A stretch of DNA of 14,633 nt from the NCBI GenBank assembly GCA_030604285.1, contig JAUVWD010000006.1:1-14633 (forward strand), read 5' to 3'. The DNA comes from Chloroflexota bacterium (lineage in GTDB: Bacteria; Chloroflexota; Dehalococcoidia; GIF9; AB-539-J10). The notes under the pieces are model-generated. The model made no database searches. It saw nothing but the letters and a program-made list of their open reading frames with translations, and was not told where the DNA came from. The translations under genes were made by a program, and so were the position numbers. This document shows, piece by piece, positions 971 to 14,519 of the stretch; the stretch's first letter is position 1; each line of letters begins with the position of its first letter.

Positions 971-1060
971 AGTGTCGGGTGGCGGGAATATATGAAAAGA
1001 AAGGATCAGTTACAATTGCGAGATCTAAAATCCCAGACAACACCCGCCACCCGCGACACT
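971..1060 (+). repeat. 16-bp inverted repeat with 56-base loop
   Basis: The left arm AGTGTCGGGTGGCGGG (971-986) pairs with CCCGCCACCCGCGACACT (1043-1060), giving 16 base pairs with a two-base bulge in the right arm. It fills the 133-base gap between the helicase loader and the YopX gene. The gap holds no convincing gene. No T-run follows, so it is not a simple terminator. The last five bases of the right arm also form the 5' arm of the small hairpin at 1056-1074, so the two structures exclude each other. Position after the replication genes makes an origin or a leader switch possible; both are inference. Confidence 0.75.
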
Positions 1061-1084
1061 TCAGAAGGAAATGTAAAAAGGGGG
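1056..1084 (+). promoter_or_regulatory. Gene-joint hairpin element, copy 1
   Basis: ACACTTC (1056-1062) pairs with GAAATGT (1068-1074) with one mismatch, loop AGAAG, then TAAAAAGGGGG as the ribosome site of the YopX gene at 1089. Confidence 0.65.
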
Positions 1085-1088
1085 AACA

Positions 1089-1490
1089 ATGAGAGAGATT
1101 AAGTTCAGGGCTTGGGGGATTATCAGTAATCGTATGCGTTCCTGGGAGAATGTTCTTATGGATGGGATGTTGCTAAGTGCAATAGGCTTACCACCAGATG
1201 AGTGCCGCCTCGTCTGGCTGCAGTACACTGGCCTCAAGGACAAGAACGGGGTGGAGATTTATGAGGGGGATATTGCAACCTATAGAACTTGGCAAGGTAA
1301 AGTAGGCGGGAAGCTCAAAACGGTTAATGCTGAAGTTTACTGGGACAAGAATGCATGGTGTATCAAATGGAAGACAAAACTCGGAGTGGGCTCTACAGGT
1401 TTGCATATTCCAGAAAGTGAAGAATTTGGCAGTGAGGTCATAGGCAACATCTATGAAAATCCAGAGTTGACATCTCAAGGTCAAATGTAA
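1089..1490 (+). CDS. YopX-family phage protein
   Basis: A 133-residue protein with the layout of the YopX family (PF09643), common in phages of Firmicutes and many other bacteria. The N-terminus MREIKFRAW, the middle segment LQYTGLKDKNGVEIYEGDI and the C-terminal VIGNIYENPEL are the typical family blocks. The fold is a small beta-barrel; the biochemical role is not established, so none is given. The ATG at 1089 has a G-rich ribosome site (GGGGG at 1080-1084). The end of the gene contains another copy of the gene-joint element, so its last codons are constrained by that sequence, and only one base separates its stop from the next gene. Confidence 0.92.
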   Translation: MREIKFRAWGIISNRMRSWENVLMDGMLLSAIGLPPDECRLVWLQYTGLKDKNGVEIYEGDIATYRTWQGKVGGKLKTVNAEVYWDKNAWCIKWKTKLGVGSTGLHIPESEEFGSEVIGNIYENPELTSQGQM

Positions 1491-1491
1491 A
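1467..1491 (+). promoter_or_regulatory. Gene-joint hairpin element, copy 2
   Basis: TTGACAT (1467-1473) and ATGT (1485-1488) form the outer stem (ACAT/ATGT plus one inner pair), with AAGG in the loop (1477-1480). It lies inside the last codons of the YopX gene. No AAAGGAGG follows; the loop AAGG is the best ribosome site for the ATG at 1492. Confidence 0.55.
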
Positions 1492-1890
1492 ATGAAGTGC
1501 ATCAGGTGTGGTAGGAATGAAGATATCGAGAACCACCATATACTTGAATCCCGTTTTGGTGGTGGAAATGAGCCAGGGAATAAAGAATATCGCTGCCGTG
1601 CTTGCCATAAATACGAACATACTCGGCGGCGGGTATTGAGTGCCTTAGAGTATGAAAGAAGCAGAGGTCAAAAGGATAGGATTGCAGCTTATGAACATCG
1701 CCTTGAAGTACTGGACAGACTCAATATCATCGAGCTTATCCGAGAACGAGGTACTTATATCAGTTATTGGTCAGTCAATAGAACCCATCGTTTACCCCGA
1801 AGGATACCGACGAAAGAAGAAGCCGAGTTTGATAAACGGTTAGATGAAGACATGGCAGTATTCGTGGCAGAATTGACAAATGAAAGGTGA
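1492..1890 (+). CDS. HNH-type zinc nuclease-like protein
   Basis: A 132-residue protein with a compact HNH/treble-clef layout in the first 45 residues. CxxC at C3/C6 and CxxCH at C35/C38/H39 would hold zinc; the HH pair at H15-H16, N30 and H43 fit the catalytic strand and helix of HNH nucleases. The remaining 85 residues are charged and helical, with no recognised domain. Phage HNH proteins nick or cut DNA, act as homing enzymes, or work in packaging; which applies here cannot be told. There is almost no space to the upstream gene, and the only SD candidate is AAGG in the hairpin loop at 1477-1480. Two further HNH genes lie at 6023 and 7487. Fold likely, activity not shown. Confidence 0.75.
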   Translation: MKCIRCGRNEDIENHHILESRFGGGNEPGNKEYRCRACHKYEHTRRRVLSALEYERSRGQKDRIAAYEHRLEVLDRLNIIELIRERGTYISYWSVNRTHRLPRRIPTKEEAEFDKRLDEDMAVFVAELTNER

Positions 1891-1897
1891 AAGTTAA
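1873..1897 (+). promoter_or_regulatory. Gene-joint element, copy 3 (degenerate)
   Basis: TTGACAAATG at 1873 followed by AAAGGTGAAAGTTAAG up to the GTG start at 1898. It keeps the TTGACA head and the GAAAGT-TAA tail, but the arms pair poorly. Confidence 0.4.
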
Positions 1898-2140
1898 GTG
1901 ATTAGTGCCATGCTCGAAGACCTGGACACGATTGAAGGGCAACGCTGTGTCTTTTGCCTTGTGGCATCATCACCAACTCCAATTGGTCGCCGTAGTAGCC
2001 TTCACATATATCGCTCTAATAAGAGCAGAGAACGAGGTCTGAAGCGTTATCAAAGGGAAACCACCTTAATGGATACAGTCTATTTTCTATTTGAAGTGCC
2101 GATAGACTTCTACCTCGACCACGCGAAGAAGCGAATATAA
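1898..2140 (+). CDS. Hypothetical protein (80 aa)
   Basis: No family is recognised. The protein is 80 residues with a CxxxC-like pair (CVFC) near residue 17, a basic middle (RSNKSRERGLKRYQRE) and an aromatic C-terminal part. The GTG at 1898 is chosen because AAAGGTGA (1883-1890) sits seven bases before it; an in-frame ATG at 1910 is the alternative. It follows the HNH gene by seven bases and is followed directly by a copy of the joint element that begins at its stop codon. Confidence 0.65.
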   Translation: MISAMLEDLDTIEGQRCVFCLVASSPTPIGRRSSLHIYRSNKSRERGLKRYQRETTLMDTVYFLFEVPIDFYLDHAKKRI

Positions 2141-2162
2141 CATTTGGAGAGTGAAAGTAAAA
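2140..2162 (+). promoter_or_regulatory. Gene-joint hairpin element, copy 4
   Basis: ACATTTG (2140-2146) faces TGAAAGT (2152-2158), pairing with one A/A mismatch and two G/T wobbles, then AAAAA. No start codon follows directly; the palindrome at 2164 comes next. Confidence 0.5.
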
Positions 2163-2163
2163 A

Positions 2164-2181: not shown

Positions 2182-2227
2182 ATGAAAGCAAATGTAAAAA
2201 AGGGGGGTAGGGGATATACCCACTAAG

Positions 2228-2255
2228 ACATTTGAGAGTCAAGAGTAAAAGGAGG
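2228..2255 (+). promoter_or_regulatory. Gene-joint hairpin element, copy 5
   Basis: ACATTTG (2228-2234), loop AGAGT, CAAGAGT (2240-2246), then AAAAGGAGG (2247-2255) as SD for the ATG at 2261. Confidence 0.75.
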
Positions 2256-2260
2256 ATTCG

Positions 2261-2653: not shown

Positions 2654-2716
2654 ATGTTCCCTGCCGAGTATAGGATTCTTTGACGAGGCCGGAGGAAATG
2701 TAAAAAGAGAGAACCC

Positions 2717-2926
2717 ATGAAACATTGCTGGCACTTCGAGAGCAAAAAGTATTGGCCGCCAGACGTAACAGAGCGTTGTTGCTACTGCGGCAAGAAGCGA
2801 AAATATCCAACCTATGTACGGGAAAAGCGACGAGGACACGGCCCTAAACTGCCAGACGATTGGGTGCTGAGTAAGGCGCCAAAGCCGCTTGAGGATGAAG
2901 AGTGTCCAAAGCGAGCTAACACTTGA
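2717..2926 (+). CDS. Small zinc-knuckle-like protein (69 aa)
   Basis: A 69-residue basic protein with HCWH at residues 3-6 and CCYCGKK at about residues 21-27, a pattern that fits a single zinc site. The C-terminal half is charged and proline-rich. Such small zinc proteins are common in phage accessory regions; partner and role are unknown. The 63-base gap upstream (2654-2716) contains a worn copy of the joint element (GGAGGAAATGTAAAAAGAG at 2691), and GAGAGA before the ATG is the only SD candidate. Confidence 0.7.
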   Translation: MKHCWHFESKKYWPPDVTERCCYCGKKRKYPTYVREKRRGHGPKLPDDWVLSKAPKPLEDEECPKRANT

Positions 2927-2940
2927 AACTCAAAAGTAAA
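2921..2940 (+). promoter_or_regulatory. Gene-joint hairpin element, copy 6
   Basis: ACTTG (2921-2925), loop AAACT, CAAAAGT (2931-2937), then AAA and the ATG at 2941. The 5' arm reads ACTTG instead of ACATTTG, matching AAGT rather than ATGT on the other side. Confidence 0.6.
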
Positions 2941-3069
2941 ATGACTCGTTTTACAGAGGAAGATGCGCTACGCATGAGGCAATTGTTCGCATTGCGTAAC
3001 GAAAGGGGGCTCACGATAGTGGAGCTTGATGAGCTTGATGAACTCGTTCGGCGATGGGAACGAAGATAA
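2941..3069 (+). CDS. Small acidic/helical protein (42 aa)
   Basis: A 42-codon gene found between the zinc-knuckle gene and the methyltransferase. The peptide is rich in Leu, Glu and Arg, with LDELDELVRR near the end, and should form one or two amphipathic helices. No family is recognised. Support is the joint element ending one base before its ATG, the tight fit between neighbours (19 bases to the methyltransferase), and a phage-like composition. There is no strong SD. Confidence 0.6.
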   Translation: MTRFTEEDALRMRQLFALRNERGLTIVELDELDELVRRWERR

Positions 3070-3088
3070 CCGAAGAAAGTGAAACAAG

Positions 3089-3784
3089 ATGAAGCCTTAT
3101 TATCAGGATGAAGCGGTGACAATCTATCACGGGGATTGCCGGGATATTCTGCCGACCCTACCTCGGGTTGACTTAGTGCTAACTGATCCCCCATATAAAC
3201 ATACTGGTCTTGGCGGGGGGGGCTTTGGTGGCCATCAATTTTACCATGATGAGTTTGTCCAATCTATGTGCGATTTCGACTTGAGAGAGTATTCCAAATT
3301 GCTGATGGAGGCTGCGCCGATGTTAATAGCTTTCCACAGCCGAGATCTTATTGTGCACTATGCCAATTTGGCAGGTGATTGGAACCGATTATACGATTTG
3401 CATGTTTGGTATAAGCCAAATGCAATTCCCTTCACTCATCATACTTGGAAAACAGATATTGAGTATCTTGCTCTTGTTTGGGCCAAGAAGCCTGGATGGA
3501 CACAGGCTAATCAAGCCCTGCATAGCAAGGTCTTTATTGCCCCGATTTGCCAAGATAGCTTGCATCCCACAGCAAAACCGGTCCCGCTGTTAGCAAAATA
3601 TATTTATATTCTTGATGCCCAAATAATTGTCGACCCTTTCATGGGTAGTGGCACAACCCTTCGTGCCGCAAAAGACCTTGGCAGAAAATCCATAGGGATA
3701 GAGATAGAGGAGCGCTTTTGCGAGGTCGCCGCTAACCGATGTCGGCAGATGGTGATGGATTTGACATTTGTAAAAGGAAAGTAA
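3089..3784 (+). CDS. Orphan DNA methyltransferase, DPPY type (N6-adenine or N4-cytosine)
   Basis: A 231-residue S-adenosylmethionine-dependent DNA methyltransferase of the beta class. The catalytic DPPY is at residues 33-36 near the N-terminus, HPTAKP is at 159-164, and the AdoMet-binding block DPFMGSGTT is at 182-190, followed by GIEIEERFCEVA. The motif order (catalytic first, cofactor site last) is what defines the beta class. The target-recognition region between residues 40 and 155 is short. No restriction enzyme gene is adjacent, so it is probably an orphan enzyme that protects phage DNA from host restriction or marks it for regulation. GAAAGTGAAACAAG before the ATG is a poor ribosome site. 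Its last codons carry a copy of the joint element. Class is certain; target base and site cannot be read. Confidence 0.95.
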   Translation: MKPYYQDEAVTIYHGDCRDILPTLPRVDLVLTDPPYKHTGLGGGGFGGHQFYHDEFVQSMCDFDLREYSKLLMEAAPMLIAFHSRDLIVHYANLAGDWNRLYDLHVWYKPNAIPFTHHTWKTDIEYLALVWAKKPGWTQANQALHSKVFIAPICQDSLHPTAKPVPLLAKYIYILDAQIIVDPFMGSGTTLRAAKDLGRKSIGIEIEERFCEVAANRCRQMVMDLTFVKGK

Positions 3785-3786
3785 AG
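3762..3786 (+). promoter_or_regulatory. Gene-joint element, copy 7
   Basis: TTGACATTTG at 3761-3770, then TAAAAGG and AAAGTAAAG (3778-3786). It lies within the last codons and stop of the methyltransferase, upstream of the gene at 3804. The stem is weak. Confidence 0.5.
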
Positions 3787-3803: not shown

Positions 3804-4370
3804 ATGAGCGAAAAAGGAATGATATTCACAGGCGAGAGCATCCGGGCGATGCTGGAAGGCAGAAAGACGGTTACTCGCAGGCGTGGGGGATTGGATAAGA
3901 TAAACGAAATGCCCGACCTCTGGCATGATCCATTCTTTGATGAAGTCACTGGCTATTGGAACTTCTGGCAACGCTATACTGGCGACGTGTTGAGTGCCAA
4001 GCCTCGCTATGCCATAGGAGACATTGTGTATGCAAAGGAGACGTGGGCACTTGCTATTCCTCTGGGTGCATCTATCCACGCTGACAGAATACTACATTAT
4101 AAGGCTGATGGAATCGGATTGCCAAAGTGGAAGTCCGCCATGTTCATGTTCAAGAAGTATGCCCGGATCTGGCGGGAGATTGTCGGGGCCAGGCCGGAAC
4201 GGTTGCAGGAGATAACACCTGATGATGCTGTGGCAGAAGGTTGTGGAAGTCTTCATAGCAATCCCATGCTGTCTGCAATAGACAATTTCTCCCAACTCTG
4301 GGGCTCCACCAACCCGAAGCACCCCTGGGACAGGAACGAATGGGTGTGGAGATACGAGTTCAAAAGCTGA
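3804..4370 (+). CDS. ASCH/PUA-like phage protein
   Basis: A 188-residue protein with the block order of a widespread phage family with an ASCH-like (PUA-fold) domain: IFTGESIRAMLEGRKTVTRR at the N-terminus, KPRYAIGDIVYAKETWA in the middle, then a beta strand and basic segment ending in RIWREIVGARPERLQEITPDDAVAEG, and a C-terminal FSQLWGSTN...WVWRYEF. ASCH domains are thought to bind RNA or nucleotides and resemble PUA domains; a precise function for the phage members is not established. Only 19 bases separate it from the methyltransferase. The SD is weak (GGAG at about 3794). Its TGA stop is the first base triplet of the best-formed joint hairpin in the window. Confidence 0.85.
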   Translation: MSEKGMIFTGESIRAMLEGRKTVTRRRGGLDKINEMPDLWHDPFFDEVTGYWNFWQRYTGDVLSAKPRYAIGDIVYAKETWALAIPLGASIHADRILHYKADGIGLPKWKSAMFMFKKYARIWREIVGARPERLQEITPDDAVAEGCGSLHSNPMLSAIDNFSQLWGSTNPKHPWDRNEWVWRYEFKS

Positions 4371-4389
4371 CATTTGAAGGCCAAATGTA
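4368..4389 (+). promoter_or_regulatory. Gene-joint hairpin element, copy 8 (perfect stem)
   Basis: ACATTTGAAGGCCAAATGT at 4370-4388 forms a perfect 7-bp stem with loop AAGGC. The TGA stop of the upstream gene supplies the first bases, and the ATG at 4390 follows one base after. The only SD candidate, AAGG, lies in the loop. Confidence 0.85.
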
Positions 4390-4680
4390 ATGGCAGATAT
4401 TGAGGAAGTCCAGCAGCAAATCACTGATGCGATCCGGGCTATCGTCGGCAAGGATTATGCTGTCTTCGTCTACATCGCTGATGAGGAGCGTGAGACTGGG
4501 ATCTGTTTGAACTTCTCCGAGAACGCAGCGGTGGCCGCGGTGACCAATATCATAACGCAGTTCAACCTCAACATTGTGGGAATCCTTGCTGCCCTTGGGC
4601 ACCAGATTCGTGTAGTTAGTAACATTCGAGTAGAGATGAGAACGGAGGAGGGTCCGCCGCCAGATCCAAGCAAGACATGA
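4390..4680 (+). CDS. Hypothetical protein (96 aa)
   Basis: No family is recognised. The 96-residue protein starts with a charged helix (EEVQQQITDAIRAIVGKD), continues with alternating hydrophobic strands (YAVFVYIADEE, IVGILAALGHQIRVVS) and ends in an acidic, proline-rich tail. It looks like a small soluble alpha/beta protein. Translation would begin directly after the joint hairpin, with AAGG of the loop ten bases from the ATG as the ribosome site. The stop overlaps the next small gene (ATGA). Confidence 0.75.
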   Translation: MADIEEVQQQITDAIRAIVGKDYAVFVYIADEERETGICLNFSENAAVAAVTNIITQFNLNIVGILAALGHQIRVVSNIRVEMRTEEGPPPDPSKT

Positions 4681-4802
4681 AAAAGAAGCCTGCAGGGACA
4701 AATCCAACAGCGGCCAGCTTACGGTTCAGCTTTGTCAGGTTGTTCCTCGCTGTGTTCCTGCAGGCTGACAAATATCTCCGAAAAGTAAAGGAGGATGTGT
4801 AA
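4677..4802 (+). CDS. Small basic protein (41 aa), translationally coupled
   Basis: A 41-codon frame that starts on ATGA with the previous stop (4677-4680) and ends on TAATG with the next start (4800-4804). The peptide is basic with a hydrophobic middle (FSFVRLFLAVFLQA) that could be a short membrane-associated helix. No family is recognised. Perfect nesting between two overlapping neighbours supports a real gene; lack of its own SD, and a 14-bp inverted repeat spanning it, leave open that the stretch is mainly a structured RNA. Confidence 0.5.
   Translation: MKKKPAGTNPTAASLRFSFVRLFLAVFLQADKYLRKVKEDV
4687..4766 (+). repeat. 14-bp inverted repeat
   Basis: AGCCTGCAGGGACA (4687-4700) pairs with TGTTCCTGCAGGCT (4753-4766), 13 Watson-Crick pairs and one G/T wobble. 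CAGCG (4708-4712) and CGCTG (4748-4752) can add five inner pairs. The whole 80-base structure lies inside the 41-codon frame and ends just before a joint element. Confidence 0.75.
4766..4794 (+). promoter_or_regulatory. Gene-joint element, copy 9
   Basis: TGACAAATATCTCCG then AAAAGTAAAGGAGG (4781-4794), which is the SD of the gene at 4802. Head and tail are kept, but the stem is poor. Confidence 0.55.
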
Positions 4803-5014
4803 TGACTATTATTCTGCGCCAATGCCTATTCTGCAATAAGTGGTTTCCAACAACCAAAATGGAGATGGTTCAAGCACGAACTGGTAAATCATCCCCTGAA
4901 CTTGAGCCTATCTTCTGGGTTTGCGACAAGAAGTGTATGGACAAACTTAATGAAGGGATAGAGGGCTCAACATTTCACCCCAAGAGTAAAGGAGGTACCC
5001 GCGATGAGAATTGA
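4802..5014 (+). CDS. Small zinc-ribbon-like protein (70 aa)
   Basis: A 70-residue protein with CLFC at residues 8-11 and CDKKC at about 41-45, a four-cysteine zinc-ribbon layout, separated by a 30-residue loop. No named family. The ATG overlaps the previous stop (TAATG) and has AAAGGAGG seven bases upstream. The C-terminal codons double as a joint element and as the ribosome site for the next gene. Confidence 0.8.
   Translation: MTIILRQCLFCNKWFPTTKMEMVQARTGKSSPELEPIFWVCDKKCMDKLNEGIEGSTFHPKSKGGTRDEN
4970..4995 (+). promoter_or_regulatory. Gene-joint hairpin element, copy 10
   Basis: ACATTTC (4970-4976), then CAAGAGT (4981-4987) and AAAGGAGG (4988-4995). It lies inside the coding end of the 70-residue gene and serves the ATG at 5004. 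Confidence 0.65.
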
Positions 5015-5141
5015 TAACACTTGCGATATGGTCTGCGAAGGTTGTGAGTGGGAAACTCAACCCGAAAGATGTCTTGAAGATTTCGTACGCGAAACCAAGG
5101 AAATATGCCGAATGTTAGCAAGCGAGAGCCGCAAAGAGTAG
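5004..5141 (+). CDS. Small cysteine-rich protein (45 aa)
   Basis: A 45-codon gene with AAAGGAGG at 4988-4995, eight bases before its ATG, one of the best ribosome sites in the window. It overlaps the previous gene by 11 bases. Five cysteines (C7, C11, C14, C23, C35) in a CxxxCxxC plus two arrangement suggest zinc binding or a small metal cluster. No family is recognised. The SD and element make the gene itself likely. Confidence 0.8.
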   Translation: MRIDNTCDMVCEGCEWETQPERCLEDFVRETKEICRMLASESRKE

Positions 5142-5871: not shown

Positions 5872-5878
5872 GCCATCA

Positions 5879-5899
5879 ACTTTTGTCCACAAAAGTAAA
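5879..5899 (+). promoter_or_regulatory. Gene-joint hairpin element, copy 11 (perfect stem, changed bases)
   Basis: ACTTTTGTCCACAAAAGT at 5879-5896 is a perfect palindrome (a 7-bp stem with a 4-base loop as RNA), followed by AAA. Compared with copy 8, the third base pair is T-A instead of A-T. No gene start follows; the next start is at 6023. Confidence 0.8.
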
Positions 5900-5932
5900 G
5901 ATACGGAAATAGGTTAATTGCCTATATCAGTA

Positions 5933-5958
5933 TTGACATTTACACATAGAAAGTAAAA
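5933..5958 (+). promoter_or_regulatory. Gene-joint element, copy 12
   Basis: TTGACATTT (5933-5941), then GAAAGTAAAA (5949-5958). Sixty-five bases from the next start codon, so not attached to a ribosome site. Confidence 0.5.
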
Positions 5959-6022: not shown

Positions 6023-6541
6023 ATGAGTATATGTAGAGTTTGTGGTGGCCCTACAGGCAGGACTAATAGAAAGACTTGCATCGCTTGTAAGGGTATCAGT
6101 ATTGCTATTGTCGAAGCAGATCGCCCCTCCTTTCTACGTGCATGTGTGGTCTGTGGCACAACCTTCGGTAGTAAGTATCCTTGGGCAAAGTATTGTTCGC
6201 CAACTTGCAAAGCACACAAATATCAAGGGGAGGAATCTTACGAGGTATCTTCACGGTTCTATAGATTGCGCTTTGCGATCTTGGCGAGAGATGACTTTCG
6301 TTGTCAGTATTGCGGAAGAACAGCACAGGATGGAGCGAAGTTGTTGGTAGTTGATCATCTGCTGCCTAAATCTCGCAGGGGTTCGGACGAACCATTCAAT
6401 TTGATTACTGCTTGTTGGGAGTGTAATACCGGCAAGGGAGATTTACTGTTGCTGGCACACAATGGAACAATTCCCAATTTTGTTAGCGTCACCGGGCGCG
6501 GCAAATCCAAAAGAAAAAAGTGGAAGTTGACAAAGGGGTAG
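6023..6541 (+). CDS. HNH endonuclease with N-terminal zinc fingers
   Basis: A 172-residue protein. The C-terminal half is a clear HNH domain: RFAILARDDFRCQYCGR with C94/C97, the catalytic strand LLVVDHLLPKSRRG with D111-H112, N126, and CWECNTGKGD with C131/C134 and N135. The N-terminal half carries CxxC pairs at C4/C7, C19/C22, C41/C44 and C58-C62, enough for two zinc sites, probably for DNA binding. HNH enzymes of this type cut or nick double-stranded DNA with a metal ion. GAGGGGG six bases before the ATG is a good ribosome site. It sits after a 150-base gene-free stretch and before a DUF5131 gene, so it may be a mobile (homing) gene or a phage nuclease used in packaging or host DNA attack. 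Confidence 0.92.
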   Translation: MSICRVCGGPTGRTNRKTCIACKGISIAIVEADRPSFLRACVVCGTTFGSKYPWAKYCSPTCKAHKYQGEESYEVSSRFYRLRFAILARDDFRCQYCGRTAQDGAKLLVVDHLLPKSRRGSDEPFNLITACWECNTGKGDLLLLAHNGTIPNFVSVTGRGKSKRKKWKLTKG

Positions 6542-6627: not shown

Positions 6628-7473
6628 ATGAACCGAACAAAAATAGAGTGGGTCGAGAATCCAGACGGGAGCCAGGGCTGGACCTGGAATCCGATTACCG
6701 GTTGTACGAATCACACGGATGGAAGGTGTAAAGGTGGTGGCTTTCCCTGCTGGGCATACAAGTTAGCGAATAGACGGCTGAAGAAGCGGTATCTGGCGAA
6801 TGAGAATATTGCCCCCTCGCCAGTGGTGCATAGCCCTGAGTTGCATGAGCAGGATGTAGGCGAGCAACTTCAAGACCCCTTCTATCCCCGGTTCTGGCCG
6901 GAGCGATTAAGCGAGCCACTGGCAACGATGAGGGCTACAAAGAAAGGATGGGAATACTGGGCCAGCACTCCGAAGGGTATCTTCGTCTGCGACATGGGCG
7001 ACCTGTTCGGGCCTTGGATACCCTGGCAATGGCAAGCCGAAATCTTCCAAGTCTTTGCGGATTGTCCTGATCATCGCTTCTACCTCTTGACGAAGCAACC
7101 CCAGGAGCTCCCCCGGTTCTCACCCTTCCCCGAGAATTGCTATGTTGGCGTCACAGCCACAGGGCATCACCAGTTTATTGAAGCCCTCCGGGGATTGAAG
7201 GCTATCGAAGCCAAGGTCAGGTTCTTGAGTATTGAGCCATTCCTTGAGCCAATTCTAGTGCCCGGTATGTCCATTATGGGGGAGATAGTGGATTGGCTCA
7301 TTATCGGGGGACAGACTAATCCCACTGTCTTGCCTGAACTGGAATGGGTAGGCGAACTCCTTTTCAGTGCAGACCGAGCTGGGATTCCGGTCTTTGAGAA
7401 AGATAACTTGGCTGCCTTGATTCCCGCATCAGAAAGGCCATTGAGGCAGGAGTTCCCAAACCTGACATCTTAG
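6628..7473 (+). CDS. DUF5131 / phage Gp37-Gp68 family protein (three-Cys motif)
   Basis: A 281-residue protein of the PF07505 family. Blocks in order: KIEW...GWTWNPITGC at the N-terminus, three cysteines C26, C34 and C41 (radical-SAM-like cluster motif of this family, here with wider spacing than the usual GCxxxSxGCxxC), GIFVCDMGDLFG at 117-128, FYLLTKQPQ at 151-159, VRFLSIEPFLEPI at 197-209, WLIIGGQTNP at 223-232 and AGIPVFEKDN at 251-260. Members are common in phages and mobile islands and are often next to a three-Cys-motif partner (TcmP) gene; none is visible here. The reaction is unknown, though a radical-SAM-type or nucleic-acid modifying role is suspected. GAGGAGG lies eight bases before the ATG. 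The stop lies inside a joint element. Confidence 0.92.
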   Translation: MNRTKIEWVENPDGSQGWTWNPITGCTNHTDGRCKGGGFPCWAYKLANRRLKKRYLANENIAPSPVVHSPELHEQDVGEQLQDPFYPRFWPERLSEPLATMRATKKGWEYWASTPKGIFVCDMGDLFGPWIPWQWQAEIFQVFADCPDHRFYLLTKQPQELPRFSPFPENCYVGVTATGHHQFIEALRGLKAIEAKVRFLSIEPFLEPILVPGMSIMGEIVDWLIIGGQTNPTVLPELEWVGELLFSADRAGIPVFEKDNLAALIPASERPLRQEFPNLTS

Positions 7474-7486
7474 AGGCGAAAGTAAA
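7465..7486 (+). promoter_or_regulatory. Gene-joint element, copy 13
   Basis: TGACATCTT (7463-7471), loop AGAGGC, GAAAGTAAA (7478-7486), then ATG at 7487. The TAG stop of DUF5131 lies in the 5' half and GAGGCG in the loop is the ribosome site candidate. Confidence 0.6.
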
Positions 7487-7969: not shown

Positions 7970-7988
7970 GGTACGAATGTAAAGGAGG
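7962..7988 (+). promoter_or_regulatory. Gene-joint hairpin element, copy 14 (full stem with one wobble)
   Basis: ACATTTG (7962-7968) pairs with CGAATGT (7974-7980), six Watson-Crick pairs and one G/T wobble, loop AGGTA, then AAAGGAGG (7981-7988) for the ATG at 7993. The TGA stop of the HNH gene is within the stem. Confidence 0.85.
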
Positions 7989-7992: not shown

Positions 7993-8313
7993 ATGCCAAA
8001 GGTTGATGTATCGAAGGGGATTGAAGTGGGACCAAGTCACTATTCTGTCGTGTGTGGGGAGGACACCAATAAAGAATTAGAGAGCAAGGCCGTCTATGGG
8101 GATTGTGCAGGACTTCTACGTAGGATAAGAGTGGCAACAAACACAAGTGAGGAACAATTCTCCACTACATTCTTGCATGAGTCCCTTGAAGCTATAAATG
8201 ATATTTGGTGCAACAGTAAACTAGAGCATGAGTTATTGACGAATCTAGCCAATGGACTCTCCCAGGTACTGCGGGGTCTTGGCATTAGCTTCAAATTTGA
8301 CAATTCGAGGTAG
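7993..8313 (+). CDS. Hypothetical protein (106 aa)
   Basis: No family is recognised. The ATG at 7993 is chosen because AAAGGAGG ends four bases upstream; a TTG at 7966 would lie inside the previous gene and the hairpin. The protein has a variable N-terminal third and a helical rest (LLRRIRVATNTSEEQFSTTF, ESLEAINDIWCNS, LTNLANGLSQVLRGLG). It could be a small soluble helical-bundle protein. Confidence 0.75.
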   Translation: MPKVDVSKGIEVGPSHYSVVCGEDTNKELESKAVYGDCAGLLRRIRVATNTSEEQFSTTFLHESLEAINDIWCNSKLEHELLTNLANGLSQVLRGLGISFKFDNSR

Positions 8314-8322
8314 AAAGTAAAG
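8298..8322 (+). promoter_or_regulatory. Gene-joint element, copy 15 (degenerate)
   Basis: TTGACAATTCGAGGTAG, then AAAGTAAAG (8314-8322) directly before the ATG at 8323. GAGG is in the centre. The arms pair poorly. Confidence 0.45.
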
Positions 8323-8631
8323 ATGGGCAAACTGACAGATAGAATACAGAACTCCAGCAAGCCAAGGCAATTGCCGCCAGGGATAGAAACGAGCATCAAA
8401 CTCGGCGGGAAGGTTGGCAGGATTCAGGATGCCCTTGTCAACAGCTTATGGCATCCAGAGGAGGCAAAGCCCAACAGGGCATTTATGTATTCTGCCATAG
8501 CTGATGCTATCACCCTTCTCAAGATACTATGCGAGGAAATGGACTTCGATTATTGCGAGACTGAAGGGCATGGCATTGATCGATTCAATGACCACTTTGA
8601 CCAAGTAGATAGGGGATTACGCCCCTATTAG
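8323..8631 (+). CDS. Hypothetical protein (102 aa)
   Basis: No family is recognised. The 102 residues have a polar N-terminus, a helical middle (GRIQDALVNSLWHPEEAKPNRAFMYSAIADAITLLKILCEEM) and an acidic, aromatic C-terminus. It follows the previous gene by nine bases and shares its joint element as ribosome site (GAGG at 8307-8310). Its TAG stop leads into the next joint element. Confidence 0.75.
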   Translation: MGKLTDRIQNSSKPRQLPPGIETSIKLGGKVGRIQDALVNSLWHPEEAKPNRAFMYSAIADAITLLKILCEEMDFDYCETEGHGIDRFNDHFDQVDRGLRPY

Positions 8632-8658
8632 ACATTTGGGTGCAAGAAGTAAAGGAGG
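8632..8658 (+). promoter_or_regulatory. Gene-joint hairpin element, copy 16
   Basis: ACATTTG (8632-8638), loop GGTG, CAAGAAGT (8643-8650), then AAAGGAGG (8651-8658) for the ATG at 8665. Confidence 0.75.
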
Positions 8659-8952: not shown

Positions 8953-9109
8953 GCGTGTCGAACTGGTGCCGGGGACCCGGCTCACCTTAGTGGTTGAAGA
9001 ACCGGGGAAAGAGCCCGAGGAAGTATGGGCATGGCAGGCACCTAACTTCAAGGGATCCCAAAAGACAGTTTTTCAGATGGAAAGCCTTTCCCTGGAAGTG
9101 ACAGTTTGA
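8933..9109 (+). CDS. Hypothetical protein (58 aa)
   Basis: A 58-codon gene that overlaps the previous one by 20 bases. The ATG at 8933 is chosen because AGAGGGGG (8922-8929) precedes it; the ATG at 8930 is too close and longer starts have no ribosome site. The peptide is beta-rich (RVELVPGTRLTLVVEEPG, EEVWAWQAP, SLSLEVTV), like a small barrel or OB-like piece. No family. Confidence 0.65.
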   Translation: MEILIDKRVELVPGTRLTLVVEEPGKEPEEVWAWQAPNFKGSQKTVFQMESLSLEVTV

Positions 9110-9125
9110 AGGGAAAGCAAGGAGG
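9099..9125 (+). promoter_or_regulatory. Gene-joint element, copy 17 (degenerate)
   Basis: TGACAGTTTGAAGGG, then AAAGCAAGGAGG (9114-9125) for the ATG at 9131. The AAAGTAAAGGAGG tail is altered to AAAGCAAGGAGG; there is no clear stem. Confidence 0.45.
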
Positions 9126-9130: not shown

Positions 9131-9331
9131 ATGAGTGAAATCATGGAGGAAACCCTTGAGGATTTACGAAGCATCAAGGGTATGACGGAGGAGGTAATTC
9201 TAGCAATCCTGACACATCCTCATATAGCTGTGGTGAATAGGGCGGCTGAGTTGCCTACGGAGGAATGCATAGTAATGAAGTATATATGCCCCTTACTAAA
9301 GACAGGCTGGGTCAAGGAGATTAAAAGTTGA
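9131..9331 (+). CDS. Hypothetical acidic helical protein (66 aa)
   Basis: No family is recognised. AAGGAGG lies five bases before the ATG. The 66 residues are acidic at the start (EIMEETLEDLRSIKG) and mostly helical, with the look of a small winged-helix or adaptor piece (GMTEEVILAILTHPHIAVVNRAAELP). Its TGA stop begins the next joint element. Confidence 0.75.
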   Translation: MSEIMEETLEDLRSIKGMTEEVILAILTHPHIAVVNRAAELPTEECIVMKYICPLLKTGWVKEIKS

Positions 9332-9357
9332 CATCTTGAAAGGAAATGTAAAGGAGG
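9329..9357 (+). promoter_or_regulatory. Gene-joint hairpin element, copy 18
   Basis: TGA stop, then ACATCT (9331-9336) pairing with AAATGT (9344-9349) with one mismatch, loop TGAAAGG, then AAAGGAGG (9350-9357) for the ATG at 9361. Confidence 0.75.
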
Positions 9358-9360: not shown

Positions 9361-9684
9361 ATGATAATACAAAGGATATATATAATAATGCGGAATGGCT
9401 TATCCCCTGGCAGCAAATGCTTGAAGTGCGGTGCGAGTTTCGGATGGAAGAAAGCCGCATTTAATGTGAGGGTAACAAAGAACTCACGGATACCAATCTT
9501 TTGCCAAGACTGCAATGCACTTGCAACCGTACATGAACGAGAGCAGGCATTAAGAATGTGGAAAAATGACAGTATCCTTGAGATTCAATCGGGGAAATAT
9601 TTAAGGCATTGGATGGAAGAGTTTAAGAAGGAACAAATAGAGGAATTAAAGCAAGCAAGGCTAGAAGATGAGGAAACAGACTGA
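9361..9684 (+). CDS. Zinc-ribbon protein with helical tail (107 aa)
   Basis: CLKC at residues 20-23 and CQDC at about 48-51 make a four-cysteine zinc ribbon around an aromatic strand; residues 55-107 are helical and strongly charged (REQALRMWKND, WMEEFKKEQIEELKQARLEDEE), a possible coiled coil. The ATG at 9361 is only three bases from GGAGG, shorter than in other genes here; the in-frame ATG at 9388 with AAAGGA at 9371 is an alternative start and leaves the zinc ribbon whole. Function unknown. Confidence 0.78.
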   Translation: MIIQRIYIIMRNGLSPGSKCLKCGASFGWKKAAFNVRVTKNSRIPIFCQDCNALATVHEREQALRMWKNDSILEIQSGKYLRHWMEEFKKEQIEELKQARLEDEETD

Positions 9685-9706
9685 CATTTCTGAAAGGAAG
9701 TGTAAA
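9682..9706 (+). promoter_or_regulatory. Gene-joint hairpin element, copy 19 (full stem with one wobble)
   Basis: TGA stop, ACATTTC (9684-9690) pairing with GAAGTGT (9697-9703) through one G/T wobble, loop TGAAAG. AAA and then the ATG at 9707 follow. The SD-like GAAAGGAAG is in the loop and 3' arm. Confidence 0.8.
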
Positions 9707-9907
9707 ATGACACAGGAAAAGAAGGTAATAATACTGGCAAGAAACTGCTTCATCTGCGGTAGCCCTATGGAAAGGGTTGAGGTGCCTCATAGTCCATTAT
9801 ATGTTCTCTTCATGGGCGAAAGGATGATGCACGAATGGCACTGCTCAAAATGCACTGCTGTAGAAAATGATTCAGGGAGACTGAGGGCACTCAAGCTCAT
9901 CGATTGA
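9707..9907 (+). CDS. Small zinc-ribbon protein (66 aa)
   Basis: CFIC (about residues 14-17) and CSKC (about 47-50) form a four-cysteine zinc ribbon with an aromatic/hydrophobic loop between. The ATG at 9707 is chosen because it follows the joint element as in other genes; a start at 9668 would overlap the previous gene. It is related in layout, not in sequence, to the gene just upstream. Its TGA stop begins the next joint hairpin. Confidence 0.75.
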   Translation: MTQEKKVIILARNCFICGSPMERVEVPHSPLYVLFMGERMMHEWHCSKCTAVENDSGRLRALKLID

Positions 9908-9931
9908 CATTACGGCTACTAATGTAAAAGG
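9905..9931 (+). promoter_or_regulatory. Gene-joint hairpin element, copy 20 (perfect stem, changed bases)
   Basis: TGA stop, ACATTA (9907-9912) pairing perfectly with TAATGT (9920-9925), loop CGGCTAC, then AAAAGG. The innermost pair is A-T where copy 8 has T-A, so both arms changed together. Confidence 0.8.
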
Positions 9932-10306: not shown

Positions 10307-10331
10307 TTGACATTTGAGACTGAAAAGTAAG
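10307..10331 (+). promoter_or_regulatory. Gene-joint hairpin element, copy 21
   Basis: TTGACATTTG (10307-10316), loop AGAC, TGAAAAGT (10321-10328), then AAGG as ribosome site for the ATG at 10342. Confidence 0.65.
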
Positions 10332-10341: not shown

Positions 10342-10458
10342 ATGTGGTGGATTTACATAGTCGTTGCTATCTCTTTTCTTATCATTTGGAAGGGCGGTCT
10401 AGCAATAGCTATCTACATACATGACCGCCACTCTGATAAGAAGTGGAAAGGGCACTAA
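10342..10458 (+). CDS. Tiny membrane protein (38 aa)
   Basis: A 38-codon gene with one membrane segment (residues 2-26, WWIYIVVAISFLIIW and on) and a basic, His/Lys-rich tail (HDRHSDKKWKGH). The ribosome site is AAGG (10329-10332) attached to the joint element. It is the last secure plus-strand gene before the convergent junction. No family. Confidence 0.7.
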   Translation: MWWIYIVVAISFLIIWKGGLAIAIYIHDRHSDKKWKGH

Positions 10459-10468: not shown

Positions 10469-10495
10469 AGGGGGAGTCCCTGGCGAACTCCCCCT
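10469..10495 (-). terminator. 9-bp hairpin at the convergent junction
   Basis: AGGGGGAGT (10469-10477) and ACTCCCCCT (10487-10495) form a perfect 9-bp stem with a 9-base loop. Read on the minus strand, the stem is followed by ACTTTTACCTTT, a weak T-run, so it may end transcription of the leftward operon. On the plus strand it is followed by AAAGGAGG and a start codon instead. Confidence 0.5.
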
Positions 10496-10618: not shown

Positions 10619-11012
10619 TCAAGCTCCAAGCCATCATTCCCCACTGTCCCCGCAGTACCGCGGGAAACATGACATCCGGGTGATGCAGCCAGTAGCCCTT
10701 CTTCCCTTTGAGCAACCGTATGGGGTGCTCGATATCCGGTAGGCAGGCGCACACGACATATCCGATCAGGTGCGGCGCCCTGACAATCAATAGAGCCCCC
10801 ATCAGACCCCCGACAATCCCGGTCCAGGCGACATACAGCCAGGTTCGCCAGCCACCGTCCCCGTACCCGTGATACCAGCTTGTGATCGGATCGACGTTCA
10901 GATCGTCAAGGATGATATGGGTCCACAGGGCCAGCAGGTAGCCCAGCGGATTCATGCGAGCCAAGATGCCGATGCCTATGCCGGCACCCATATGAACCGG
11001 CGTTGCTGCCAT
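10572..11012 (-). CDS. Multi-pass membrane protein with LPDIEHP motif (YdjM/DUF457-like, order changed)
   Basis: A 146-residue hydrophobic protein with about four membrane segments (roughly 8-30, 58-77, 80-92 and 124-141). Metal-ligand-like groups are H7 (TPVHMGAG), THIILDD (H32, D36, D37), LPDIEHP (D93, H96) and HH at 110-111. These groups resemble those of the YdjM/DUF457 membrane-bound metal-dependent hydrolases (PF04307), but there the PD-DH block comes before the HxxxD block; here the order is reversed. Alternatively it may be unrelated. AGGGAGAG five bases before the ATG is a good ribosome site. It is the last gene of the leftward operon. Confidence 0.65.
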   Translation of the reverse strand: MAATPVHMGAGIGIGILARMNPLGYLLALWTHIILDDLNVDPITSWYHGYGDGGWRTWLYVAWTGIVGGLMGALLIVRAPHLIGYVVCACLPDIEHPIRLLKGKKGYWLHHPDVMFPAVLRGQWGMMAWSLIMAWILVIEWKWFYP

Positions 11013-11558: not shown

Positions 11559-13361
11559 CTACAGTTGGAACCTCGCAGCGTGTAGCCGTGCCCATTCAGT
11601 GAAAGTAACCGGCAGAGTGAAAGTACCGGTCTCGGTGATTGCTACCGAATCGGCCAGGTGCAGCGTCATGTCCCGGGTAATAGCCTCGGCTATCGCAATG
11701 GAGTCCTCCTGGCTGATCCCGATAGCCTTGGACACAGCATCGGCGATAGCCACGGTGTCGGCAAGCCCTATAGACGCAGCCTTTACTAACTCATCGAGGA
11801 CAGCTATTTCATCGCTCAGGTTGACGCCTACCTGTTTAGCCTCGCTATCAGCTATAGCAATACTATCAACGAGGGCTAGATAGGCGGTCCATGCCTGGGC
11901 AAAAGTGTCAGCGATGTTCACTGTGTCTGCCAATGCTAGTTGTGCATCCCAGACCTTGGCAAAGCTATCAGCTATCGCCACTGTGTCGCTGGGATTCTTG
12001 CCAATACCCTTCATAATGTCCTCGGCGATAGCCACGGCATCGCTGGCTGCCTTCCCTACACCCTTGGAGATATCATCAGCAACTGCCACGCTGTCACTTG
12101 AAACCTTTCCTACAGCTTTAGCAGGGCTATCAGCTAGGGCAATGGTATCGCTCAAGGATTTCTCGTGTGCCACACCCCCTACCGTGTATTCAAGATGCAC
12201 CTTTGCGCCTTTGGTATTATCATCGAAATCCCATGATTGAATATCCAAATCTTCATAGCTAGTGCTATCTATTATAAAGACCAATGCATCACCAGTTCCG
12301 GCATTGTCATCCACAACTTCTTGCACTTCATCTATCAAGTCGCCACTAGCAGGGCAGTTCTTCCAGCCTGTCCCTTGTGATCCACCAACTAATTCAGTGC
12401 TGGCAGTTGTGAGGGTTCTATTACTCATGTTGCTCGCACCAGTTGTGAATGTACCAGGATTATTACCATTCTCGCAGTACACATCTTTATTCGTGTAGAG
12501 GTCGTCACCAGCAGCATTCGGAAGATAAAGCTCAAGATATGCCGCTGTAACAGTTGTACCATCGGGAACACTAATACCCGTAAACCGGAAGCCGACCATG
12601 CGGAAAGAATCTCCAAGGGTAAGTTCATCATTATCCAGGATCATACCAGCATGATGCTGCTCCGCGTCATCTGAACTCTGCCCGACTTGCTCACCAATTA
12701 CGGTGGCATCTATAATGGGATACTGGATAGGCAGAACCTCCGCTGCTTCCTCGTCGGCAAATACTATAGGCAGTTCTCCAAGACGCTCACGATGTCCTCC
12801 AAGAATAGACTCACGGTACATCCTGATTCGCTTGGCATTAGCATCAGTAGCATGGCGAAGCCCTCGCATCCTGGCTCGACCAGGGTAAGCCTCGTAAAGG
12901 ACATCATGGACTCGTGGAGCATCTTCCTGCTTAACAATCCACAAAAGCGTTACTGTGCGTGTACCAGCCACTACTACCACGTCTACCTGCTTATACAGGT
13001 CCTCCCAGATGATACGGTTGCCCTCGATGCGAGGCAGCACTCGGTTAGGACGCAATCCAGGACTGCCCTTTAGCCTGACGTTGAACTCGCCGCTATGCCG
13101 TGAGCGGTGCCAGAAGTTTGGTAGCTTCTCAAGGTCTACATCAAGCATATAAGGAGCAGCACGAATCTTACCGTTGGAATCGAAGTTGAGGTCAATATCG
13201 AGCCAGGGAAGTGACTCATCCTTCTCATCCTCACGGTAGTGCAGAATACCTACTACTGAGTCAAGAGCATAGCGGTGCTTGCCACCACGAGCAGGACCAA
13301 GGTAAGTAGTCTTGCTACTGCGTGTGCGCTTCCGTAGTAGCTCTTGACCAACTGTAGGCAT
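11559..13361 (-). CDS. Tail fibre-like virion protein with C-terminal 18-20-residue repeats (600 aa)
   Basis: A 600-residue protein, probably part of the virion (tail fibre or appendage). The start at 13361 has GGAGG six bases upstream and shares its A with the previous stop (TAATG). Residues 1-250 have a conserved look with no name given. Residues 255-393 form a jelly-roll-like domain of the kind seen in many phage and surface proteins (VGFRFTGISVPDGTTVTAAYLELYLP ... LIDEVQEVV ... ALVFIID ... AKVHLEYTV). Residues 404-587 are about ten repeats with core D-T/S-hydrophobic-A-hydrophobic-A-D, e.g. SDTVAIADSFAK. The last 13 residues differ. No receptor-binding domain is recognised. Sequence-level function is inferred from context. 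Confidence 0.8.
   Translation of the reverse strand: MPTVGQELLRKRTRSSKTTYLGPARGGKHRYALDSVVGILHYREDEKDESLPWLDIDLNFDSNGKIRAAPYMLDVDLEKLPNFWHRSRHSGEFNVRLKGSPGLRPNRVLPRIEGNRIIWEDLYKQVDVVVVAGTRTVTLLWIVKQEDAPRVHDVLYEAYPGRARMRGLRHATDANAKRIRMYRESILGGHRERLGELPIVFADEEAAEVLPIQYPIIDATVIGEQVGQSSDDAEQHHAGMILDNDELTLGDSFRMVGFRFTGISVPDGTTVTAAYLELYLPNAAGDDLYTNKDVYCENGNNPGTFTTGASNMSNRTLTTASTELVGGSQGTGWKNCPASGDLIDEVQEVVDDNAGTGDALVFIIDSTSYEDLDIQSWDFDDNTKGAKVHLEYTVGGVAHEKSLSDTIALADSPAKAVGKVSSDSVAVADDISKGVGKAASDAVAIAEDIMKGIGKNPSDTVAIADSFAKVWDAQLALADTVNIADTFAQAWTAYLALVDSIAIADSEAKQVGVNLSDEIAVLDELVKAASIGLADTVAIADAVSKAIGISQEDSIAIAEAITRDMTLHLADSVAITETGTFTLPVTFTEWARLHAARFQL
11601..12152 (-). repeat. Tandem repeat block coding for 18-20-residue units
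   Basis: About ten units of 54-60 bp in the tail-fibre-like gene. Most are 18 residues; two middle units are 20. Repeats are diverged at DNA level, though pieces such as TCAGCTATCGCC/A recur. They would form a regular rod or stalk, and copy number may vary between relatives. Confidence 0.8.
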
Positions 13362-13849
13362 TAAGTTCCTCCGAAGGTCACCGTCCAAGTTATTACTAGG
13401 CTATCATTGGCACCCTTGTTGATGGCGGCGAAACTGGCAGAGACGAACATGGTGCCAGCTGAGGCATCGTTGAAGATACCGGCTTCAGTAAGCGCAGCGG
13501 TGGCATCGCCGGCAGCCCATGTACAGACATAGATGACATCGTTATCATCGCCGACGGTACCCTGCGTGGTGCTATCCAGAGCATTGCGGTCTGTCTCGCT
13601 ACCAAGAGCCGTAGTGCTAGGAGTACCTGCGCCCACAGCCATATGGCTCATGGCAGTGTTGCCCTGGTCACTGAGCTGGTCGGCAACGTGAGCATCGCCG
13701 AGGGCGGTAACGGTATTCAGGAGCAGGCGGCTATCGAGGCAATCGAGGATCTCAGCGCTCAGGTCGTAGCCCTCAATTTGGAGGTGGCCGATCTCACTGA
13801 AGAGTTGTATACTGATGCTTCCCTTTATCCCCAAGCTGTCTTTTAGCAT
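13361..13849 (-). CDS. Phage tail-associated virion protein (162 aa)
   Basis: A 162-residue protein with the pattern of a family found next to tail-fibre genes: AMSHMAVGAGTPSTTALGSE, then VIYVCTWAAGDATAALTEAGIFN, then GTMFVSASFAAINKGANDSLVITWTVTF. The beta-rich C-terminal half is the conserved part. GGAGG is six bases before the ATG, and the previous stop TAG overlaps that site. Stop and next start are joined as TAATG, so it is coupled to the repeat-rich protein, which it may assemble with. Confidence 0.82.
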   Translation of the reverse strand: MLKDSLGIKGSISIQLFSEIGHLQIEGYDLSAEILDCLDSRLLLNTVTALGDAHVADQLSDQGNTAMSHMAVGAGTPSTTALGSETDRNALDSTTQGTVGDDNDVIYVCTWAAGDATAALTEAGIFNDASAGTMFVSASFAAINKGANDSLVITWTVTFGGT

Positions 13850-13858
13850 CTTTTCCTC

Positions 13859-14254
13859 CTAGATAAACTTGAACACCCGGACTGAAGCAGTGCCACTCTC
13901 ACAGATTGCCCAGATGCTCGGTGGCCCTCCTTCGCGGGTCACTGGGTCTATTTGCCACTTCCTCACGTCCATATCCAATTTGATATGTTCACTCTTCTTA
14001 ATAGGAGCTTCGTTGACGTCCCACGGGAGGGTATCCAGCGGATGGCCTATCCTGATATAAAGGTTGGCATCACCATCATTCCAGATATCCACTGACTTCC
14101 ATGCGCCTATCAGTAACTCTCTCCATGAGGTTCCTACGATTCTTGTCTCAGTGTTCAGGACACCGACAGCCCCCAAGTCTTCAAGCCGCTTGGCTATCTC
14201 GTCCAGTTTGACGAGCATGAGTTGCTCGGGTGACAGCCGTGGTGGTCCTGTCAA
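13859..14254 (-). CDS. Probable virion protein (131 aa), TTG start
   Basis: A 131-residue protein with a helical N-terminus (LSPEQLMLVKLDEIAKRLEDLG) and a beta-rich rest (WKSVDIWNDGDANLYIRIG, SIWAICESGTASVRVFKF) like other small phage structural proteins. The start is taken as TTG at 14254 because AGGGAGG lies four bases upstream and it overlaps the previous stop (TTGA); an ATG at 14218 is the alternative. Place in the late operon before the tail genes supports a virion role. Confidence 0.7.
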   Translation of the reverse strand: MTGPPRLSPEQLMLVKLDEIAKRLEDLGAVGVLNTETRIVGTSWRELLIGAWKSVDIWNDGDANLYIRIGHPLDTLPWDVNEAPIKKSEHIKLDMDVRKWQIDPVTREGGPPSIWAICESGTASVRVFKFI

Positions 14255-14397
14255 TGAACCTCCCTATGCACGGTGATAACCTGCTTGTGTCCTCGGTAGT
14301 CTACCCATTCCCAGACCTCGGCATTGCGGGTGCCTTGCTTCCGGGTGATCCACCAGAGAGCCAAGCCTATTAGCGCAAGAAGATGCCAGTCCTTCAT
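14251..14397 (-). CDS. Small membrane-anchored protein (48 aa)
   Basis: A 48-codon gene with one N-terminal membrane segment (about residues 5-17, HLLALIGLALWWI) and a polar C-terminal part. AAGGAGAG precedes the ATG by four bases. It overlaps both neighbours (ATGA before, TTGA after). No family. Confidence 0.7.
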   Translation of the reverse strand: MKDWHLLALIGLALWWITRKQGTRNAEVWEWVDYRGHKQVITVHREVH

Positions 14398-14483
14398 GAT
14401 CTCTCCTTGACGAACTCCCGGTAGAATTCAAGTATCACGCCGGCGGCGATGATAATGAGCAACCATTTCATTCCTTTGTTCAT
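14394..14483 (-). CDS. Tiny membrane protein (29 aa)
   Basis: A 29-codon gene with one membrane segment (residues 6-18, KWLLIIIAAGVIL) and a charged end. GGGAAGG precedes the ATG, attached to a minus-strand copy of the joint element. It overlaps the next gene as ATGA. Confidence 0.65.
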   Translation of the reverse strand: MNKGMKWLLIIIAAGVILEFYREFVKERS

Positions 14484-14486
14484 CTT

Positions 14487-14519
14487 GCCTTCCCTTTACT
14501 TTCTCTCGCTGAAAGTCAA
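14487..14519 (-). promoter_or_regulatory. Gene-joint hairpin element, minus-strand copy
   Basis: On the minus strand TTG, then ACTTTC (14516-14511) pairing perfectly with GAAAGT (14503-14498), loop AGCGAGA, then AAAGGGAAGG as ribosome site for the ATG at 14483. It lies between the stop at 14522 and the tiny membrane gene. Confidence 0.8.

Follow-up and report, generated by a model that had tools for sequence, protein, structure and literature searches.

Why does one gene after another on a phage-like contig begin behind the same short sequence, and what might read that sequence? The question is raised by a 14,633-base stretch of DNA (hereafter the window), which is the whole of contig C105 in the metagenome-assembled genome (MAG) G000 (725 kb, 115 contigs, 59% complete). 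Judged by its gene content, the contig reads as phage, and most of the phage genome is likely missing from it; binning is what links it to this MAG, whose organism may be its host. We find that a two-box repeat at the joints between its genes is genuine and that one regulator probably reads it as a shared control site.

Alignment of 23 copies over their indels gave a directional consensus, TTGACATTT-N7-AAANGTAAA. Twenty-two of the copies lie on the plus strand, all within 9.3 kb, and one lies on the minus strand, with one lone right half in addition (Table 1). About 22 copies had been counted in the initial annotation, and all eleven coordinates that it named fall within an element. The best columns of the left box are an A and a C (22/23 each), with a G at 17/23, while the right box reads G, T, A, A, A in 23, 22, 22, 23 and 20 of the 23 copies, followed in every one by a purine (G 13, A 10). 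Between the nine-nucleotide arms, the spacer measures 7 nt in 19 copies and 6, 6, 5 and 8 nt in the other four, so the variable loop of 4–7 bases first described is not what we see. By counting, the centers of the TTGAC and GTAAA boxes are 20 bp apart, or about two helical turns.

The repeat stands far above background. A weight matrix trained on 17 of the copies gave 17 matches at ≥16 bits on the plus strand and 1 on the minus strand, whereas 100 dinucleotide shuffles averaged 0.02 matches per strand; this bears out the enrichment that had been anticipated. Leave-one-out scoring without indels placed 21 of the 23 copies above 10 bits, compared with 7 of 29,057 other positions, and 16 of the copies outscored the best of those positions. 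The seven are the half copy (2194) and the reverse-strand reading of six elements, which score when read backwards because their arms form a near-dyad; the two copies below 10 bits (G of GTAAA at 9117 and 9702) both have a spacer of different length. When indels were allowed, 22 copies scored at least 12.0 bits and 21 at least 17.2. By these scores the copy at 9099–9121 (0.0 bits) appears doubtful and that at 2680–2704 (12.0 bits) weak. A sequence-only covariance model (R1) recovered the 23 copies on which it had been built, together with the half copy, at E ≤0.09, the next best hit having an E value of 1.3, and no known Rfam family matched the window at the gathering cut-off. The two kept boxes are far more than a shared Shine–Dalgarno (SD) sequence, as had been proposed. 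Chance and a plain SD sequence are both ruled out as the source of the repeat by the shuffles, the leave-one-out scores, and the placement at gene starts.

For 18 of the 22 plus-strand copies, a listed start codon follows 3–23 nt after the G of GTAAA, where random placement gave 1.15 such sites (maximum 7 in 20,000). Eighteen of the 26 listed rightward genes therefore have a copy at this distance, in agreement with the earlier claim that the element joins most genes. Those without a near copy start at 299 (DnaC), 3089 (methylase), 5318, 5710, 6023, 6628 (DUF5131), 8933, and 10040, and among them 6023 and 10040 have a far copy only. The distances from the G to the start are 3, 5, 5, 5, 5, 5, and 6 nt in a first group, in which GTAAA runs into the start codon; 13–18 nt in a second group, in which many copies have a GGAGG-type SD between GTAAA and the start; 23 nt in one copy; and 70, 104, 116, and 128 nt in the four far copies. 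The stop codon of the upstream gene lies inside the element in 14 of 22 cases, at eight offsets and in all three frames. The element is therefore part of the joint and not coding sequence, and coding conservation is ruled out as its cause. The head TGA does serve as the upstream stop in the four copies for which this had been stated, and a head TAA or TAG does so in two more. All 23 copies point with their gene, and among the leftward genes, which come after the rightward block, only a small one starting at ~14483 has a copy. The four far copies, averaging 22.9 bits, are conserved like the 19 near ones, which average 20.8 bits (21.9 if 9117 is set aside); the sequence is therefore not maintained by a start close at hand.

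Table 1 Copies of the two-box element in the window and what adjoins them.
Position	Strand	Features of the copy and upstream side	Downstream side
1053–1077	+	G of GTAAA at 1073	gene 1089–1490, start 16 nt after G
1467–1491	+	TAA of GTAAA is stop of gene 1089–1490	ATG 1492 immediately next
1873–1897	+	contains upstream stop TGA	GTG start 1898
2137–2161	+	head holds upstream stop TAA	14-codon ORF 2182–2226; listed start 104 nt away
2190–2198	+	lone right half; R1 row 2183–2199	
2225–2249	+		gene 2261–2653
2680–2704	+	weak (12.0 bits)	gene 2717–2926
2916–2940	+	contains upstream stop TGA	ATG 2941 immediately next
3761–3785	+	TAA of GTAAA is stop of gene 3089–3784	start 3804, 23 nt past G
4367–4391	+	head TGA is stop of gene 3804–4370	end overlapped by ATG 4390
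4765–4789	+		gene 4802–5014
4967–4990	+	spacer 6 nt; upstream ORF 4802–5014 reads through copy	gene 5004–5141
5876–5899	+	spacer 6 nt; tandem with 5933–5957	gene 6023–6541, 128 nt downstream
5933–5957	+		gene 6023–6541, 70 nt downstream
7462–7486	+	contains upstream stop TAG	ATG 7487 immediately next
7959–7983	+	contains upstream stop TGA	GGAGG, then start 7993
8297–8321	+	contains upstream stop TAG	start 8323
8629–8653	+	head holds upstream stop TAG	GGAGG, then start 8665
9099–9121	+	doubtful (R1 E 0.06, 0.0 bits); spacer 5 nt	gene 9131–9331
9328–9352	+	head holds upstream stop TGA	GGAGG, then start 9361
9681–9706	+	spacer 8 nt; head holds upstream stop TGA	ATG 9707 immediately next
9904–9928	+	head holds upstream stop TGA	next listed start 10040, 116 nt away
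10307–10331	+		small gene 10342–10458
14495–14519	−	sole minus-strand copy	ATG of small leftward gene, 16 nt downstream
ORF, open reading frame.

The consensus arms are nearly dyad-symmetric (TTGACATTT against TTTACNTTT, complementary at 7 of 8 defined positions), and the initial annotation had taken them for a conserved hairpin. A folded RNA hairpin, serving for processing or as a structured operator, would fit this complementarity, the matching changes on both arms in three copies (5876, 9904, and 14519), and a covariation score equalled by only 20 of 500 shuffles. When arms were swapped between copies and G-U pairs allowed, own arms paired at slightly more of the 9 positions than foreign ones did (6.17 against 5.98, p 0.02), as was also seen over the inner six (p 0.009), but not with Watson–Crick pairs only (p 0.28) or in folding energy (p 0.14). 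In register, 72.5% of the cells are paired and 27.5% are not, against 33–50% paired when the arms are slid by 1–3 columns; shuffled partners pair nearly as often as true ones (70.1%, with 31 of 500 shuffles reaching the observed value). The central pair, at columns 9–24, is unformed in 14 of the 23 copies, pairs changed on both sides number 3 against 3.0 in shuffles, RNAalifold predicted no pair for the copies, and Rfam offered no match. A conserved RNA hairpin is thus mostly unsupported, with a weak contrary hint from arm-swapping, and we consider this explanation very unlikely.

The spacer is purine-rich (68%), and AGG occurs in the spacer plus three right-arm bases in 12 of 23 copies, against 7.05 in composition-matched shuffles (p 0.01) and 4.07 in random windows. 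It is found in 12 of 19 near copies and in none of the four far ones (Fisher p 0.037, post hoc). The 16S rRNA of same-family hosts ends in CACCTCC, a standard anti-SD sequence, in all four genomes read. The seven copies with a start directly behind and the remaining 16 are not set apart by the anti-SD energy of their spacers (p 0.36). Most simply, ribosomes would make use of the spacer where no other sequence fits, and the mRNA would run through the element. These observations would agree with a translational operator, in which the leader of each gene would present the element to a phage protein that turns translation of the set up or down, the ribosome-binding site being carried by the spacer and the bases after GTAAA. 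Such an operator would directly explain the orientation and the position of 18 of 22 plus-strand copies just before a start, and could accommodate the weak arm pairing. Yet four full copies have no listed start in reach, the position between stop and start is perhaps forced, as the joint holds little else, the anti-SD energy does not speak for it, and only 10 of 23 copies fold at ≤ −1 kcal/mol. We regard a translational operator as the main rival explanation, though a rather unlikely one; its more specific form, in which one phage protein would read a leader tag on nearly every early gene and gate them gene by gene at the ribosome, with the ribosome-binding site in or behind the spacer, seems somewhat less likely still.

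TTGACA is the textbook −35 box, and the element might instead serve a phage RNA polymerase or sigma factor as its promoter, in which case transcripts would begin from or just after GTAAA and many would be nearly leaderless. Oriented boxes at fixed spacing before single genes, the tandem copies before gene 6023, and the invariable purine after the GTAAA pentamer would suit a promoter, and the copy at 9681, with its longer spacer, reads CTGACA-16-TAAAAT (10 of 12 matches). The consensus, however, has no −10 (TATAAT-like) box 16–18 nt after TTGACA, and sigma-70-like sites occur in the window at chance level (17 against 17.2). In the seven copies with a start 3–6 nt after the G, six have AGG in the spacer, suggesting that the mRNA runs through the element and thus disfavoring a promoter that ends there. 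The window, from which most of the phage genome is likely missing, gave no match to a phage RNA polymerase. A promoter appears improbable.

The element was then looked for elsewhere. In the MAG, all 20 matches of R1 at E ≤5 fell on this contig (150 of 202 candidates scored). Under stricter filters, with 18 candidates scored per listed genome, the array was absent from 393 genomes of the class, four of which had a match at E ≤0.1 (14 in G000 and one in each of three others), and an exact-pattern search of 198 relatives also gave no array, with matches in six (five in G000 and one in each of five others). An element of the host is therefore ruled out as far as searched, by the lack of a match in the rest of the MAG and of an array in the class genomes. 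Of the pattern scans of viral contigs, one returned at least 120 stretches and the others 5, 10, and 4, and a scan of genome contigs returned 6; by the weight matrix, the loci of the 10-, 4-, and 6-stretch scans had one or two sites each. One weight-matrix survey covered 158 loci, 17 of them read in detail. The matrix found no array at any fetched locus outside the window, the maximum among the loci counted in a further survey being three sites at ≥16 bits in the AT-rich L051. This viral contig and another AT-rich one, L059, have two sites above 20 bits each, which we take for an effect of composition. A search led by the tail protein yielded no locus with the array, and none of the 80 kept among 453 relatives listed in a DnaC-led search had more than two sites at ≥16 bits.

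A search led by DUF5131 gave 26 loci, of which only the L163 record had two sites above 20 bits, five others having one site of 14.3–16.0 bits each. L163 (IMG/VR 3300009034_000104, a 40.5-kb record) encodes a DUF5131 protein 48% identical to that of the window, and its two sites, of 24.6 and 20.9 bits, lie at adjacent joints (6372–6410 and 6672–6714), where the distance from the G to the start is 15 and 18 nt. A further site of 19.7 bits lies in the same record (L308, ~4199–4223), and shuffles of L163 gave 0.003 sites at ≥20 bits. The locus was chosen by pattern scan from many, and R1 recovered one of its three sites, so L163 is no more than suggestive as a relative with the element. ASCH-type and DUF5131 genes also occur on L170, a fragment from the same family, which had no site at ≥9 bits. 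Among the viral and genome contigs to which the pattern scans and protein searches led, no close relative carrying the array was found, and we found no published report of the element sequence in the literature listed, where none of the text-string matches shown concerned phages by title.

L211, a phage sharing DnaC, has three TTGACAA or GACAA ... GTAA sites (~914, 1002, and 1878), two of them one base longer between the boxes than in the window, and they look like −35 regions. In L321 (IMG/VR 3300005253_000282), an identical 18-mer, AGCAGATATTGAAGGGGT, stands at three consecutive joints (9748–9765, 10848–10865, and 11596–11613); at two of the three, the upstream ORF ends with a TAG that overlaps the head of the 18-mer, and at each a start follows within 23–40 nt. 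DUF5131, HNH, and ASCH-type genes are common to L321 and the window, but the window element is not, and so another phage of this gene pool has a separate start-associated repeat.

The L321 joints, where the same sequence precedes each start and differs from that of the window, might recall a recombination joint for swapping single-gene cassettes, without any regulatory role. Upstream genes that enter the element and stop wherever a stop occurs (the 14 of 22 above, in three frames) would also be expected of such a joint, and the cargo (HNH, YopX, methylase, and DUF5131) is of an accessory type. Recombination alone, however, would not keep two boxes while the 7 nt between them stay free. The spacers of the 19 copies with the standard length are no more alike than shuffled ones (2.05 against 2.03 identities of 7, p 0.39), and similarity between copies does not drop with distance (p 0.51). 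The copies are therefore not recent duplicates, so the cassette shuffling suggested earlier is not supported as far as recent copying goes, and a purely recombinational joint is in our view hardly likely. Integron attC sites and CsrA-type GGA hairpins were also considered and set aside.

Taken together, the conserved boxes, the free spacer, the rigid spacing, the conserved far copies, and the mostly failed pairing argue for a protein-bound site, and near-dyad arms about two turns apart fit DNA. We tentatively favor, at rather less than even confidence, a site for one phage regulator that would act mainly on duplex DNA and gate the small genes, in the manner of the stoperators and of the inverted repeats of the extended start-associated sequence (ESAS). 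A directional, bipartite, phage-specific site at the joints of the rightward non-structural block would be recognized, most likely in duplex DNA, by a single regulator that the phage encodes, and transcription into the adjoining gene would thereby be controlled. For the ESAS, its authors likewise take failed pairing to point to DNA-binding proteins (PMC3203893), and oriented sites held to stop transcription are described for cluster A phages (PMC9283540, as far as its passages show).

Several points weigh against this DNA-bound site. Strict orientation comes free with an RNA element, which it fits more simply, whereas for a DNA site it would have to be accounted for specially. At their third base the two arms differ consistently: the left arm has G in 17 copies and A in 6, while A occupies the corresponding position on the right in 22 of the 23. 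The element is therefore no plain dimer palindrome. The arm-swapping result is a weak sign of pairing, lost with Watson–Crick pairs only, and AGG in the spacer tracks nearness to a start. Finally, a repressor was not identified when all 26 rightward proteins were compared with Pfam and most with PHROGs; the sole regulator-like match is a sub-threshold one to MerR in the 42-aa product of 2941–3069 (E 0.023). The 66-aa product of 9131–9331, which by eye resembled a winged helix, was rejected as a candidate: it had no homolog beyond itself and no PDB match below E 0.1, and its single-sequence model was too poor to use (predicted local distance difference test score, pLDDT, 52).

Among the rightward products, a DnaC-like loader (PHROG 50; gene at 299) and members of the YopX, HNH, N6/N4 methylase (3089–3784), and DUF5131 (6628) families were matched. 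By eye, CxxC motifs resembling zinc ribbons occur in the products of 2717–2926, 4802–5014, 5004–5141, 9361–9684, and 9707–9907, and these small proteins may be candidate nucleic-acid binders; only that of 9707–9907 has a weak Pfam match (Zn_ribbon_RanBP, E 0.0002, below the cut-off). Tiny ORFs of 12–14 codons between tandem copies (2182–2226 and ~5917–5955) end at the next copy like full genes; they may be what is left of lost genes, or else very small genes in their own right. A perfect palindrome, TAGGTGCGCGCGCACCTA, lies between two copies at 2164–2181 and resembles a terminator only when read on the minus strand. Close to the end of the rightward block of small genes stands a strong hairpin (10469–10495), which is terminator-like on the minus strand. 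On that strand, 11559–13388 encodes a 609-aa protein with repeated D(S/T)VAIAD-like units toward its C-terminal end. It is matched by 15 other proteins; several of the eight read carry the same type of repeats, and some sit on contigs of 20–41 kb.

Oriented repeats at the starts or joints of phage genes are already known in unrelated phages. The initial annotation had drawn a fair parallel with the start-associated sequences (SAS) of cluster K mycobacteriophages, of which, according to the passages describing them, 11–19 short copies per genome are found at the start codons of non-structural genes, nearly always pointing the same way. The cluster K repeat is a 13-bp sequence, GGGATAGGAGCCC, with the SD inside, and in some places it contains the stop of the upstream gene; the ESAS adds an imperfect inverted repeat of 17 bp, in which the changes observed give no support to RNA pairing, and in Adephagia it sits with a putative SigA-like promoter (−35 and −10 hexamers 17–18 bp apart). 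As far as these passages go, the window element is likewise close to starts (18 of 26), in one orientation (23 of 23), and linked to non-structural genes, but its sequence is unrelated to GGGATAGGAGCCC, its consensus lacks a −10 box, and it is denser. Arbiol and colleagues reportedly described in 2010 mobile regulatory cassettes of T4-type phages, called PeSLs, which form repeated regulatory joints between small accessory genes and are reported to consist of an early promoter and a stem-loop; for the window element, neither a promoter nor a stem-loop is supported.

We add three parallels: cluster A stoperators, the T1/TLS repeats, and cluster O palindromes. Cluster A phages such as L5 have more than 20 directional sites, many in short intergenic spaces and oriented with transcription (PMC9283540, in part), and the window element meets this layout, being asymmetric, oriented with transcription, and in short intergenic spaces. 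In the same passages, stoperators are 13 bp, asymmetric, and bound by a monomeric repressor, whereas the window element is 25 bp, bipartite, and near-dyad, and no repressor was matched in the window. The T1-like phages TLS, T1, and Stevie carry 16–21 copies of 21–22-bp repeats whose function their descriptions leave unknown (PMC11447400, PMC4319613, in part); these too are asymmetric, mostly intergenic, and oriented with transcription, and the TLS repeat has conserved ends around a variable middle, its 3′ end reading TAAAA. Unlike the window element, with its 3–23 nt, the TLS repeat (consensus aaATAGCACnnnTTGnTAAAA) lies ~76 bases before the start. Cluster O mycobacteriophages have 34 copies of a 17-bp palindrome, TGTTCGGNNNCCGAACA, read by their authors as likely dimer sites (PMC4351075, in part). 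It shares the inverted halves, and its intergenic copies are mostly in one leftward region, but according to the same passages it is invariant, has little meaningful orientation, lies inside genes in about one-third of cases, and is not linked to starts.

As far as these passages show, the window element stands apart from the compared systems in sequence, in density, and in that a stop, two boxes with the spacer between them, and a start make up a single unit, and its sequence has not been met as a set elsewhere. With 22 copies in 9.3 kb, the window set is the densest among them, and its size allows conserved boxes to be told from a free spacer and the hairpin idea to be put to the test. Among the compared systems, these passages give a tested role for the cluster A stoperators alone; on the DNA-bound reading that we favor, the small genes of this phage would be silenced or released one by one, each through its adjoining site.

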